A stretch of DNA of 38,818 nucleotides from Acidobacteriota bacterium. GTDB taxonomy: Bacteria; Acidobacteriota; Blastocatellia; Pyrinomonadales; Pyrinomonadaceae. This document shows positions 2,839 through 34,291 of this stretch, piece after piece. How positions within the stretch are numbered: position 1 is the stretch's first letter; each line of letters opens with the position of its first letter. A program made the position numbers and the translations under genes. Under the pieces are notes generated by a model that did no database searches, had not been told where the DNA came from, and saw only the letters and a program-made list of their open reading frames with translations. The stretch spans positions 1-38,818 of the forward strand of contig QHXM01000061.1 of the NCBI GenBank assembly GCA_003222945.1. The letters run 5' to 3'.

Positions 2839-2991
2839 GGAGCAGAAGAGCAAGGGAGGAACGAAGGGATGAAGGATGAGGGATGAGGGATGAATAAGAA
2901 AGGACTGATTTTATGTTTTTTCGATTCATCCCTCATCCCTTCGTCCTCTGCCCTTATTCTCATCCCTGCCTTCCCTCCCTTGCTTTCGTTC
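2839..2991. repeat. gaaggatgaggg/catccctcatccc word hairpin
   Basis: Perfect 16-bp core gggatgagggatgaat (2880-2895) / attcatccctcatccc (2924-2939), flanked by further partially complementary reiterations. Confidence 0.85.
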
Positions 2992-4430: not shown

Positions 4431-4524
4431 GAAAAGCAGAATTCAGGAGTCAGAATTCAGAAGCCAGAATAAAGACAAAACGGGTTTCATCCTTATCCCT
4501 TCTGGCTTCTGAATTCTGCTTTTC
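4431..4524. repeat. gaattcag/gaagccag word hairpin
   Basis: Right arm ttctggcttctgaattctgcttttc (4500-4524) pairs fully with left arm 4431-4469 except for a 14-nt word duplication gagtcagaattcag. Confidence 0.88.
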
Positions 4525-13120: not shown

Positions 13121-15232
13121 TCAACGATTGTCCGGCTTTGACACTCGCGCTGGTCCGTCTTCGTTACGTTCACGCCGTTGCTCCGCTGGTTTCGACTCTT
13201 CCCGGCGCGGCGGAGCTTCCTGTTTAGGTTCTGGACGCGGCTCTTGCTTAGGCTCTGGCTTTGGCTCTGGACGAGACTCAGGCGGAGCAGGTCTCGGTTC
13301 TGGCCTCGACTCAGGTTTAGGCTCAGGGCGCGACTCCGGTATGCGTTCGGGTCTGGGCGAATACCTAGGCTCCGGGCGGCGTTCAGGCTCAGGCTTGGCT
13401 TCAGGTCTCTCTTCTCTTCGCTGTGGACGCTGCGTAGTCTCGCCGCCTTCGTTGTTGCGCGCGGGCGAGACGGGTCTTCGACGCGGCTCTGGTTCGCTTT
13501 CACGAATGGAGGGCTGCTCTTCGCTCGGCGACACGGTGCGACCTTCGCCCGGATTCACGCGCGCAGGTCGAGCGGGACGCTCATTCAAAGGTGTCGAAGA
13601 GTTTCCGTCGCCGCCGCGCTCAACCGCCGGGCGCTCCTGTGAACGATTGCGCGGAGGCCGAGCGACCGCGCCCGTGTTTACAGAATCAACGCCGACTCCG
13701 CCGTTCACATCAGCGCCAGAAACGGAGCGCGGCTCGCGCCCGTTGTAGAGCCGCGTGCGGCGAAGTTCAGTGTCGAGCGCCACACCCGGCAAACGCGTCG
13801 CCGCTCCCGTCGGACGCTCCGGCAACGCTCGTGTGAAACCTGTAGAAGAGGGTGAGCGCGCGGGCGCTGTAGTGGTCCGAGCCGTGCGGCGATCACTCTC
13901 CGCTCTGTTTGTAGCATCATCGCTTGGTGTAATCGGCAAGCGACCGCGCACGGGTTCAGTTGTGACTGCTCGACGCGCGATCTCATCCGCCGCTCGCTCA
14001 GGTCGCGCAGCGTGTCGCCCGAAGTCGCGCGCAGGCACACTTGTGATTGCTCGAAGGTAAGCGGGGTTCGTGCGCTGCAACCTTGCAAGATCGTTTGAGC
14101 GCAGAGCTTCAAGACGTTGATAGTAGCGGCTGCGCGGATCGCGTTGGCCGTAAGCTAACGGATACCAGCAGACGCGCTCGCCGTAAGATGTCGGGACATA
14201 GACGAAGACTACTAGCGCCGGACGCCACCAGTTTCTATGCTGAGTGTGCGTGCGCGGAACCCAGCACCAGTTGTTCTGGTAATAGACCCAGCGACCGTAG
14301 TGATAAGGCGCCCAGCCCCAGGGTTCATCCGCAACCCATGTCCAACCGTAAGGCGGACACCAGACCCAGTTGCCGTAACGATAGGGCGCCCAGTCCGTGT
14401 AACTGCTAACGCTCGCTCTGAACGGACTCCATACCCAACCGTAATCGTTTGAATAGACCCACTCGCCGTAAGCGTCCAACTCTTCAGCGCCCCAAACGTC
14501 TGTGTCGTAGTAAACGTCGCGCCCGTCGAAGTGAAGATTAGTGGCGAGGAATCGTTCGCGCTCGTCAACCCAGGTGTCCCAGTTGTCGCGCGCCTCCGCA
14601 TAATTCAAATTCCAGTCGCCCGCATCACTCCCGTTTGAGACGAGTTCGGCTGTGTGGCCCTCGCGCAAAGTAAAGCCGGATGTCTCCGAGTAGATTCGCG
14701 CCTGCCCGCCATCGCGCACGGTGAGCCGCACGCTTCCCGTATCAGAAACGTCAACGCGATAGAGGCCGCGATTTTCAGCAGCCAGAGTCGTTCCGGGAGC
14801 GTCAACCTCGAAATACTCTTTGCTGTGGTCAAGGCGCGCGAGCCGAAAGGTTGCAACACCTTCAGAGAGACTGAGCGCAACGCCTTCATCGCGCAGCGTA
14901 ACGAGGCGAAGGACGGAATCCGGTCCGATGCGAATGAAGTTGCGCGCGTCAATCTGTATTTCGAGGCGCGCATCCATCCCTGCCGTTGCGAGCGTGTCGC
15001 CTTCCACGAGCGGGACGTTGACGTGCGCCGTCTCCCAAGTGCGGCTGCCGCTTCGCTTCAATTGAACGTTGCCGCGAATCAGAGTCACACGAGCGACGCG
15101 CGCAGTCTCATCGTATTCATCCGCATCCTTTTCATCGTCTGCGCGGACCGGAACTGTGAAAGTTGCGAGCAAAAGAAAGAGCAGAAAGAGAGATGTAGAA
15201 AAGATAGGCCGCAAGTTGCGCATGGGCTTCAC
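13121..15232 (-). CDS. FecR domain-containing secreted protein with WP/YG-rich DUF6600-like region and Pro/Glu/Arg-rich C-terminal tail
   Basis: Signal peptide MKPMRNLRPIFSTSLFLLFLLLATFTVPVRA; FecR-like LIRGNVQLKRSGSRTWETAHVNVPLVEGDTLATA; YGEWVYSNDYGWVWSPF...WAPYRYGNWVWCPPYGWTWVADEPWGWAPYHYGRW; low-complexity PEPRPEPKPE tail. Confidence 0.88.
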   Translation of the reverse strand: MKPMRNLRPIFSTSLFLLFLLLATFTVPVRADDEKDADEYDETARVARVTLIRGNVQLKRSGSRTWETAHVNVPLVEGDTLATAGMDARLEIQIDARNFIRIGPDSVLRLVTLRDEGVALSLSEGVATFRLARLDHSKEYFEVDAPGTTLAAENRGLYRVDVSDTGSVRLTVRDGGQARIYSETSGFTLREGHTAELVSNGSDAGDWNLNYAEARDNWDTWVDERERFLATNLHFDGRDVYYDTDVWGAEELDAYGEWVYSNDYGWVWSPFRASVSSYTDWAPYRYGNWVWCPPYGWTWVADEPWGWAPYHYGRWVYYQNNWCWVPRTHTQHRNWWRPALVVFVYVPTSYGERVCWYPLAYGQRDPRSRYYQRLEALRSNDLARLQRTNPAYLRAITSVPARDFGRHAARPERAADEIARRAVTTEPVRGRLPITPSDDATNRAESDRRTARTTTAPARSPSSTGFTRALPERPTGAATRLPGVALDTELRRTRLYNGREPRSVSGADVNGGVGVDSVNTGAVARPPRNRSQERPAVERGGDGNSSTPLNERPARPARVNPGEGRTVSPSEEQPSIRESEPEPRRRPVSPARNNEGGETTQRPQRREERPEAKPEPERRPEPRYSPRPERIPESRPEPKPESRPEPRPAPPESRPEPKPEPKQEPRPEPKQEAPPRREESKPAEQRRERNEDGPARVSKPDNR

Positions 15233-15547
15233 GCTCCTTTAGTTTTGAAACGTCAAGAAGGGAGTCGCTCGCTTTCAGGCTTAAGGTTCAGGCGCAGGGC
15301 AAAAGCTTTTAAGAAAAGCTGCGCGCAGTCTGGAGAGAGAAAAGCTTCGTGCGAGTGCTTCGTATCTGCTATTGAGCGCCGAGAGCAAGACTCATGCCTG
15401 CGCTTTTATCAGAGTAAGTGTTTACTTCTTTTCTTAAAATTTTCTTGCGAGCGTAAGGCAGCCCGGCATTTGTTTATGCCAGATGGTGTGCGCTCCGGCA
15501 CTATATGGGATGAGAGAAGGAGAAGATCAGTGCAGCCTGCGGGTCGC

Positions 15548-15863
15548 GGTGTGGGATCAATGAACGCAGCCTTGAGGATAACGTACTCAAGCGTAGGATC
15601 AACGAGCGCAAGCCTGCGGAGAACGAGCGCAGACGTCGGATTAACGAACTCAGGCTTGAGATCAACGAGCGCAACGTTGAGGATGATGAGCGCAGGCTTG
15701 GGATTAACGAGCGCAAGGCTGCGGAGAATGAGCGCAAGCGTTCGTTCGTTATCCGCACGGCTGCGTTCGTCATAATCAGGCGTGATTTCGCTATAATCTG
15801 CCGTGATTTCGTTATCGTCACGGCAGATTTCGCTATAATCACGCCTGATTATGACGAACGCAG
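15548..15863. repeat. 21-bp tandem minisatellite with strand switch and terminal long palindrome
   Basis: About 14 consecutive 21-nt units (a 7-residue repeat in the reverse frame: LRSFSAA LRSLIPS LRSSSST LRSLISS LSSLIRR LRSFSAG LRSLILR LSTLSSR LRSLIPH). Perfect 26-bp arms 15761-15786/15838-15863 plus inner 12-bp arms 15795-15806/15818-15829. Confidence 0.88.
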
Positions 15864-15936
15864 GGCTGCGGGAAACATCCTCAAGCGTGCGCTAAGCCTA
15901 TGTTATGGCAAGTTTTATGGTCGCCCGGCATTGCAA

Positions 15937-17307
15937 TCAGCTATAGTTCCTCACCAGAATCGGGTGCGCTTCGGTGTTGAAGATTACTCTATCGAACTTC
16001 AGAGTTCGTGGCGGAGCGAATAGAAGATAGAAATATTTTAGCGTCTCAGCGAAAAGAAAGCTCTGCATTGAATCCGACTTCTCTTTCGTGACGACGCTTT
16101 TCAGGCTCGCGTAAGCTTCATCCGTCTTACAGTATTTGACGAAATCGTCGAACAGTCTCTTTCCCGCGCGCAGGTATTCGGGGTCTCTTGTGTAGTGATA
16201 AAGATAGTAGGTTGACTCGACTATCTCGGGGCGCAAAGGGTACGCGGCCTCCGTAACTTCCAGCGTTTTGTAGTTTATCTCTTCCGGCTCGATTCCGTAT
16301 TGCGCCCACATCTTGAAAGATGATGTCTGCAACTCGCGCGCTCTTGTGATGTTGCCTGAGAGAGCAAGCACGGCAGGGAAGAAGGCGTCGAGCGCGCCGT
16401 AGGTCGTAGAGGTGCGGCGGCCTGTGAGCATATCCGCGTGTCCGTACCAGAGTTCTGTCCCGACTTCATCCGCCAAATATTTGTTGATAGAAGCCACGCT
16501 CTCTCGCCACATGCGCTTGCAGTCTTTATCTTTGAAGAGCAGCCAGCACTTCAAAAGATATTCGTAGTAGCTATCTATCGCGCCGCTTATGTGGCTGTCC
16601 GTGCCGGTCCACTTTCCTGTATCAACATTTATCCTTGTTCCAACGAGTCCAAGCGCAGAGCGACGATTGTAAATCTCAACCAGTGCGCGCTTGGCTTTGT
16701 CGTAGAAGACGGGACGATGGGTGAGCCGACTCAAAGTGCCAAACTCTATCAGCAGAGTTCCTGCTTCGGCAGGATTGGTTTCAACGCCGCGAGTCTTTCC
16801 TGTTTTGAGATTGACGAATCTGTAGGGAAGCCCCGTTGGAGAATCGAAGACAGGCAAGAGCCTGTTTCCCAAATCTTCTGCGAGGCGCAGGAGACGTTTA
16901 TCGTTTGTGAGTTCGTAGCAGGAGAGAAGACCGCCCAGGAGACGTATTGTGACCTCGAAGTTTTGAACGTAGATGTCTTTGTCGAAAGAGAGATTTTCGA
17001 TGATGTAGTTCTTCGTGCTCGCGGCCTCGTCTTTCAAACCCATAAGGATCATCGTGTCCAGCGCGTCAACGGGCGTCATCAATAGAGACTCAGGCGCGTA
17101 CCAATCGTGATAGCTCTTGCTCAAGGGGCGCAGGTCGTCGTGCCCCCAAGCGTATTTTTTGTAACCGCGCCAAGCGTGCAGGAATTCCGAGCGCACCTGA
17201 TTGGCGAGTTCCTGTTTGTTGATAGAAGTTTGCGCGTGTGCGAAGTGAGAGTTGACAGTTGTTAGAGCGTAGAAGAGTAGAAAGGAGATTAATCGAAGAG
17301 TTCGCAT
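15937..17307 (-). CDS. Glycosyl hydrolase family 47 (class I alpha-1,2-mannosidase-like), secreted
   Basis: Signal peptide; WGHDDLRPLSKS...TPVDALDTMILMGLKDE; FEVTIRLLGGLLSCYELTND; GAIDSYYEYLLKCW; LRPEIVESTYYLYHYTRDPEYL; SDSMQSFLFAETLKYFYLLF; VIFNTEAHPI, all matching the recalled GH47 signature order. Confidence 0.9.
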   Translation of the reverse strand: MRTLRLISFLLFYALTTVNSHFAHAQTSINKQELANQVRSEFLHAWRGYKKYAWGHDDLRPLSKSYHDWYAPESLLMTPVDALDTMILMGLKDEAASTKNYIIENLSFDKDIYVQNFEVTIRLLGGLLSCYELTNDKRLLRLAEDLGNRLLPVFDSPTGLPYRFVNLKTGKTRGVETNPAEAGTLLIEFGTLSRLTHRPVFYDKAKRALVEIYNRRSALGLVGTRINVDTGKWTGTDSHISGAIDSYYEYLLKCWLLFKDKDCKRMWRESVASINKYLADEVGTELWYGHADMLTGRRTSTTYGALDAFFPAVLALSGNITRARELQTSSFKMWAQYGIEPEEINYKTLEVTEAAYPLRPEIVESTYYLYHYTRDPEYLRAGKRLFDDFVKYCKTDEAYASLKSVVTKEKSDSMQSFLFAETLKYFYLLFAPPRTLKFDRVIFNTEAHPILVRNYS

Positions 17308-22703: not shown

Positions 22704-22720
22704 CTTAATCCTCCTGAATT

Positions 22721-22800
22721 CGTAAATCGTGAATCGTAAATCGTAAATGGAGAAAAACAAGAATCGTTCGTCTATTTACGATTCACGATTTACGATTCAC
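22721..22800. repeat. cgtaaatcgtgaatcg word hairpin
   Basis: Perfect 21-bp arms cgtaaatcgtgaatcgtaaat (22721-22741) / atttacgattcacgatttacg (22774-22794). Confidence 0.9.
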
Positions 22801-23002
22801 GGCCTTTAGAGCTTAACATAAAGAAGCTTTCTGTTGCGGTCATTGGTGAAACTATTTTAAGATGGTGATGACTAGCAAAGCCTTTTTATAGTGCTGGCAG
22901 TTATCTTGCGCCCAGAACAGTTTTGTCTTCGCCGGGCTTGGAATTTGCGCTCGCCTCTCCTTTCCTTGCCCCGCACGACCGTTTTGAGAGCCGACTGCTC
23001 GC

Positions 23003-27278: not shown

Positions 27279-27367
27279 AAGGCAAAAGGTAAAAGGAAAA
27301 AGGCAAAAGTTAGAAAGAGCGAATCTCTTATCTTCCCTTTTGCCTTTTACCTTTTTACTTTTGCCTT
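27279..27367. repeat. aaggcaaaaggtaaaag word hairpin
   Basis: Left aaggcaaaaggtaaaaggaaaaaggcaaaag, right cttttgccttttacctttttacttttgcctt; contains ctttttacttttgcctt (27351-27367). Confidence 0.85.
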
Positions 27368-34235: not shown

Positions 34236-34282
34236 TTTCAAGTTTCAAGTTGATACTTGTCTTGGAACTTGAAACTTGAAAC
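34235..34282. repeat. gtttcaag word hairpin between stop and next start
   Basis: Perfect 17-bp arms gtttcaagtttcaagtt (34235-34251) / aacttgaaacttgaaac (34266-34282). Confidence 0.9.
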
Positions 34283-34291
34283 CTGCAACTT

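Follow-up and report, generated by a model that had tools for sequence, protein, structure and literature searches.

The array of 21-bp repeats at positions 15543 to 15909 of the window (that is, the whole 38,818-nucleotide stretch of DNA analysed here) is, with a probability that we put at about 0.6, one copy of a MITE-like, non-coding dispersed repeat with a minisatellite body of near-palindromic 21-bp units. The results suggest that a dispersed 21-bp repeat class is present in the Pyrinomonadaceae, and no description of such a class in this family was found in the literature searched. Minisatellite unit lengths normally differ between loci. Unrelated arrays which share one length, and which are copied in both orientations, thus provide a test of what sets the unit length of bacterial tandem repeats, whilst a genome carrying such arrays makes the evolution of palindromic arrays itself testable. 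If searches were guided by period and dyad and not by sequence, further members of the class could come to light elsewhere.

The array and its genomic setting

The array is real, and the observation on which the initial annotation was based is confirmed, with some changes to its dimensions. A lag-21 identity scan, in which identity reached 0.68 over 84 nt, gave limits slightly longer than the 15548 to 15863 first proposed. The units are each exactly 21 bp with zero indels, as had been stated, but there are 16 of them (15565-15900) instead of about 14. Each consists of a 12-nt near-palindromic core (a 4-nt arm, N4 and a second 4-nt arm, with arm pairs such as CGCA/TGCG, CTCA/TGAG and ATCA/TGAT) and a 9-nt spacer; one dyad is centred in the N4 and a second lies halfway along the spacer, so that successive dyads are 10.5 bp apart. 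Together with the lag-21 identity, a reflection score of the unit profile of 0.47, against 0.34 in permuted columns (p=0.0005), and a predicted RNA folding energy of -153.1 kcal/mol (z=-8.4) argue that the array is not a product of chance.

The spacer is forward (ATTAACGAG-like) in units 1-8 (15565..15732, plus strand), reversed (TTCGTTATC or TTCGCTATA) in units 9-13 (15733..15837, minus strand) and forward-like again (TATGACGAA) in unit 14, the first of the last three units (15838..15900, plus strand), of which units 15 and 16 are degenerate. The first switch falls between unit 8 (15712-15732) and unit 9 (15733-15753), the reversal of the constant half having been reported from about 15740. 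The nested palindrome is likewise perfect, with an inner inverted repeat of 12 bp (arms 15795..15806 and 15818..15829) as described, whilst the outer one extends to 27 bp (arms 15761..15787 and 15837..15863) and not 26. Cores 11-14 (ATCA-GGCG-TGAT, ATCT-GCCG-TGAT, GTCA-CGGC-AGAT and ATCA-CGCC-TGAT) form nested reverse-complement pairs, and the three spacers which separate them are all direct (TTCGCTATA, TTCGTTATC, TTCGCTATA), just as had been noted of the variable parts and the constant half. Such an arrangement would require inversion of a block followed by spacer flips, or separate flips of the cores.

The array lies between the stop of a GH47 glycosyl hydrolase gene (15937..17307, minus strand; Pfam PF01532, E 5e-124), which ends about 30 bp before it on the minus strand, and the start of a FecR/DUF6600 protein gene (13121..15232, minus strand; Pfam PF20245 and PF04773), about 310 bp beyond it on the same strand. 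The FecR gene had been placed downstream; the array is instead upstream (5') of FecR and just 3' of GH47, and no evidence of an effect of the array on the FecR gene was found. The nearest relatives of the GH47 gene are Pyrinomonadaceae records, on which the assignment to this family rests, and homologues were seen in genomes G092, G096, G113, G114 and G118. In the GH47 genes of two genera two matching pieces lie about 60-75 nt apart inside one open frame, which suggests small in-frame insertions. Neither Rfam models searched against the window nor plasmid and phage collections searched with the array gave a match, and neither an intrinsic terminator nor a sigma-70 promoter was found at the array. 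An iteron array of plasmid or phage origin was considered and rejected, as there was no match in the collections and the neighbours are GH47 and FecR, not a replication gene.

Related arrays within and between genomes

The search for further 21-nt arrays which the initial annotation had proposed was carried out in 846 kb of unselected sequence from the same genome (18% of a 4.74-Mb draft assembly in which the window is contig 133) by scanning for 84-nt stretches with at least 57% identity at lags of 5 to 63, the thresholds being chosen by eye. In the first 556 kb there were 54 stretches of period 7, nine of period 14, 18 of period 21, 18 of period 42 and 17 of period 63, and at most six of any other period; the favoured periods are therefore 7/14 and 21/42/63 only. 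Non-coding 21-bp arrays numbered 18 (15 in the 556 kb and three in the next 290 kb), from which around 100 would be expected genome-wide by scaling. Left out of this count were three period-21 matches which are probably coding (L110 16934, L162 18787 and L109 7159), four loci of the 7-nt class (L178, L190, L174 and L112) and one short, weak match (L176 1254).

Despite their differing sequences, 14 of the 18 arrays have dyad symmetry at p<=0.0015. Three (L107, L115 and L283) have no clear dyad symmetry and L111 is weakly symmetric; these four lie at L107 6118-6490, L115 4121-4420, L283 8184-8547 and L111 9203-9542. As the asymmetric arrays have an equal period and the same intergenic position, symmetry is evidently not needed for the 21-nt ruler. 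In the symmetric arrays the mean identity at lags 21, 42 and 63 was 0.60, 0.62 and 0.58, respectively, a persistence which shows that there is no drift in phase, and small bumps at lags 10-11, 31-32 and 52-53 reveal a faint half-unit repeat. The helical-phase constraint first suggested is thus upheld as a pattern, all 18 arrays having period 21 whatever their sequence, and is conjectural as a mechanism. By a simple gene caller, which assigned 82% of the sequence as coding, 14 of the first 15 arrays are intergenic, and most arrays lie within about 150 bp of the 3' end of some gene. Their neighbours are diverse, and a tie to one gene family was rejected since related small proteins precede two arrays only. 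Each of the genes for these proteins (L108 9202-9678 and L257 939-1559; 37% identity, function unassigned) has a 21-nt array no more than 60 bp behind it, the two arrays belonging to different families.

Whole arrays recur at unrelated loci, from which it follows that the array is the dispersing unit. The array on contig C160 (L186) has copies of 93-94% identity on C138 and C258, and the latter two match each other at 94% over 392 bp before giving way to unrelated neighbouring genes. Similarly, the C40 array (L180) has a 91% copy on C156 over 355 bp, in which one gap has precisely the length of a unit; in a further copy, on C135 (77%), the units are reordered. Looser families are formed by the window array with an array on C155 (75%), by L107 with L115 (73%) and by L172, L184 and L187. 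When the ends of the two three-copy families were aligned no inverted ends were seen by eye; the ends fade, and the left ends differ among copies. Nor was a clear target duplication seen by eye, the comparison genome being of the same genus with about 75% DNA identity. Some families could have spread by recombination or segmental copying and not by transposition. One array has the start of a Y1 (IS200-like) transposase gene (148 aa) about 145 bp away (L108 8284-8730 and 8875-9145, G000:C268), and this gene is a candidate for a linked enzyme. With three Y1_Tnp matches in the genome this proximity could be due to chance; the other two have no 21-nt array within the surrounding 1.5 kb.

Arrays of the same class were found in four other Pyrinomonadaceae genera (genomes G108, G094, G043 and G030), with four arrays of one family in G108 and arrays L227, L230 and L231 in the three further genera, L231 being a young array with near-identical units. 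Among other families of the class, 205 kb of sequence gave a score in one low-complexity stretch and nowhere else. In 115 kb of the one genome of the same genus, G105, there was no clear 21-nt array, and two of its genes which are orthologous to array neighbours have no array beside them. An array with dyad symmetry (p=0.001) stands at a contig end (L064 1-203) in a MAG labelled Bacteroidetes, and the class may reach beyond the Acidobacteriota. A 25-bp match in G053, inside sequence that resembles by eye a DNA polymerase I gene, was taken as chance. Since many other contigs, and other genera as well, carry similar arrays, the window array is unlikely to be an artefact of assembly.

The same genome also carries, in the window (2864-2895, 4437-4470, 22717-22801, 27279-27367, 34261-34289 and others) and genome-wide, elements in which four or five direct copies of a 7-nt repeat precede a loop of about 20 nt and then the heptamers in reverse complement, in sequence families such as AATAGTG, AAAAGGC, AATTCAG and AAATCGT. 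In the 846 kb, an inverted 12-mer partner was found no more than 200 bp away for 99 of 119 heptamer runs, compared with 29 of 1220 controls. In G105 a CAGAATT-type heptamer hairpin (L262 around 1260-1390, on contig C663), with no 21-nt array, adjoins the orthologue of the gene next to array L118, so that both classes of repeat may occupy one type of site.

Origin of the strand switch and competing explanations

Copying between units was analysed in 21 symmetric arrays by means of dyad-centred 12-nt cores which are identical at 12/12 positions in one orientation and at no more than 9/12 in the other. There were 21 such pairs in inverted and 23 in direct orientation, against 1.9 and 3.1 with shuffled columns, ten of the direct pairs coming from the young array L231 alone. 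The flanks at offsets 7 to 15 follow the cores: identity was 0.77 inverted and 0.65 direct for inverted pairs, and 0.65 inverted and 0.80 direct for direct pairs. Furthermore, the C138 and C258 arrays differ by GGAA[AA]TTCC against GGAA[TT]TTCC, as an inversion at the dyad would leave. These three lines of evidence point to copying of units in register in either orientation, and the template switching which the initial annotation had raised as one possibility is supported by them. The strand switch at constant spacing, which had seemed a puzzle, largely ceases to be one, since units that are nearly self-complementary keep their register when inverted. The earlier interpretation as a whole is partly supported; it had overlooked the near-palindromic nature of single units, the large number of such arrays in the genome and the dispersal of whole arrays.

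In the reading that we prefer, a MITE-like repeat with a minisatellite body, whole units would be gained and lost within arrays via slippage or unequal exchange, and at a dyad the growing strand could realign onto the opposite strand, the units being near self-complementary. Realignment of this kind would copy units or cores in reverse with the register kept, and would leave nested palindromes like that at 15761-15863. Whole arrays would be copied into new intergenic sites by a putative enzyme, the new copies being tolerated mainly behind gene ends. In the RNA of the GH47 gene the array would fold as long hairpins, with a possible influence on decay or termination that is probably incidental. 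The weakest step concerns the period: 21 bp, or two helical turns, may be kept by a reader of one face of the repeat, which we conjecture to be either a symmetric DNA-binding protein or the enzyme that does the copying.

This last step can be taken further, to mobile DNA defined by geometry and not by sequence, in which unrelated families share units of two turns, a dyad at each turn and strand-blind copying, and are moved and phased by one protein machine, either a symmetric filament or an enzyme that copies the DNA with a 21-bp ruler. That two turns with a dyad at each turn imply a protein which reads one face of the helix is a conjecture, and we consider the whole proposal tentative and rather doubtful.

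Alternatively, each unit might be the site of a dimeric protein, with half-sites about one turn apart recurring every two turns, so that dimers bound on one face of the DNA control the neighbouring genes or chromosome structure. In many arrays a variable N4 lies between arms that are conserved at +-3 to +-7 from the even dyad, which is indeed reminiscent of helix-turn-helix operators; the 21-bp phase is exact, and the lack of arm covariation beyond the consensus suits recognition by protein better than hairpins. However, family-specific unit sequences would demand about as many different proteins, the arrays lie mostly behind genes and beside diverse ones, and two orthologous loci in the same genus have no array. 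An operator role is thus unlikely.

Less likely again is a functional RNA, in which the array is co-transcribed with the upstream gene and, folded into a series of hairpins or into a long rod, guards the 3' ends of mRNA or stops transcription. The frequent location just 3' of genes would fit, as would the folding energies of most of the symmetric arrays (z about -5 to -15) and an order of units which slightly favours folding (mean z about -1). Against it, a permutation analysis of ten positions in 21 arrays found no covariation of arms within units beyond the consensus (Stouffer z 0.14 at even and -0.36 at odd dyads), although L180, L118 and L187 taken singly were suggestive, and dyad symmetry is therefore not explained by selection of hairpins unit by unit. 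Symmetry is also undiminished far from each dyad, there is neither an Rfam nor an intrinsic-terminator match, and arrays of this class that lack symmetry show scarcely any folding. The extreme folding is that of any self-complementary array, and the slight effect of unit order is accounted for by neighbouring inverted copies.

Palindromic sequences grown in place by replication slippage, with neither mobility nor selection, would account for unit-sized indels, reordered units and the near-identical units of the young L231, and inverted copies are typical of hairpin slippage. Near-identical whole arrays at unrelated loci nevertheless make purely local growth improbable, and slippage alone does not explain one period common to unrelated sequences. 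Finally, a heptad (coiled-coil) protein repeat or its remnant, the coding alternative raised at the outset, can be set aside almost entirely: 21 nt equals seven codons, one forward frame is open across the window array and LRSLxxx heptads can be read in an ORF on the minus strand, yet both overlapping ORFs have no Pfam match, the plus-strand ORF of 373 aa is mostly antisense to the FecR gene and stops occur in most frames across the array class.

Relationship to known repeat systems

Fold-back transposons, which are eukaryotic and larger, contain inverted repeats of short tandem sub-repeats, and the 21-bp arrays resemble them in this build, with no homology claimed. Heptamer repeats such as TAACTGA and the STRR-type arrays (PMC4679880) are also short direct repeats abundant in intergenic DNA, and are plentiful in this genome too as fold-back pairs, but their period is 7 and not 21; inside the 21-nt arrays, identity at lag 7 was 0.20, at or below background, against 0.60 at lag 21.

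A closer parallel is provided by BrickBuilt, a minisatellite inside a MITE in Porphyromonas gingivalis (PMC4596501). In both cases short tandem units abut without spacers and combine a conserved with a variable half, several non-coding intergenic copies occur per genome (always intergenic in BrickBuilt), the repeats are predicted to form long stem-loops and the number of units varies by locus. As expected of a MITE, the present arrays are short, non-coding, dispersed and intergenic, with three-copy families at unrelated loci and 14 of 15 between genes, and their internal 21-nt tandem units are predicted to give long stem-loops (MFE z -5 to -15 for most of the symmetric arrays). However, BrickBuilt is a single family in one species, with 23-nt units, a leader and tail, and inverted ends of 12 bp that relate it to an IS5-type element (PMC4596501), whereas several families unrelated in sequence occur in one genome here, all with 21-nt units and a dyad every 10.5 bp, and neither inverted ends nor a relation to an IS was found.

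BIMEs, in which REPs stand at regular spacing and in alternating orientation (PMC2817692), offer the second parallel, for REPs are also palindromic intergenic units that are grouped, alternate in orientation and occur in many dispersed copies (PMC2817692, PMC3116915). Both orientations are likewise represented in our arrays, inverted and direct cores being equally frequent. Within a genome, however, REPs belong to a single sequence class, marked by a defined tag and accompanied by a RAYT gene (PMC2817692, PMC3116915), whereas the units here are joined head to tail every 21 bp, with a sequence particular to each family; in place of one class with GTAG or CGTC at the foot of the hairpin there are many unrelated unit sequences, and these tags are irregular in the window array. 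As inverted ends and target duplications like those of a MITE were not clearly discerned, and a common tagged class as in BIMEs is absent, we file the 21-bp arrays under neither system; the best-supported reading is a MITE-like class with a palindromic minisatellite body, closest to these two and working like both.
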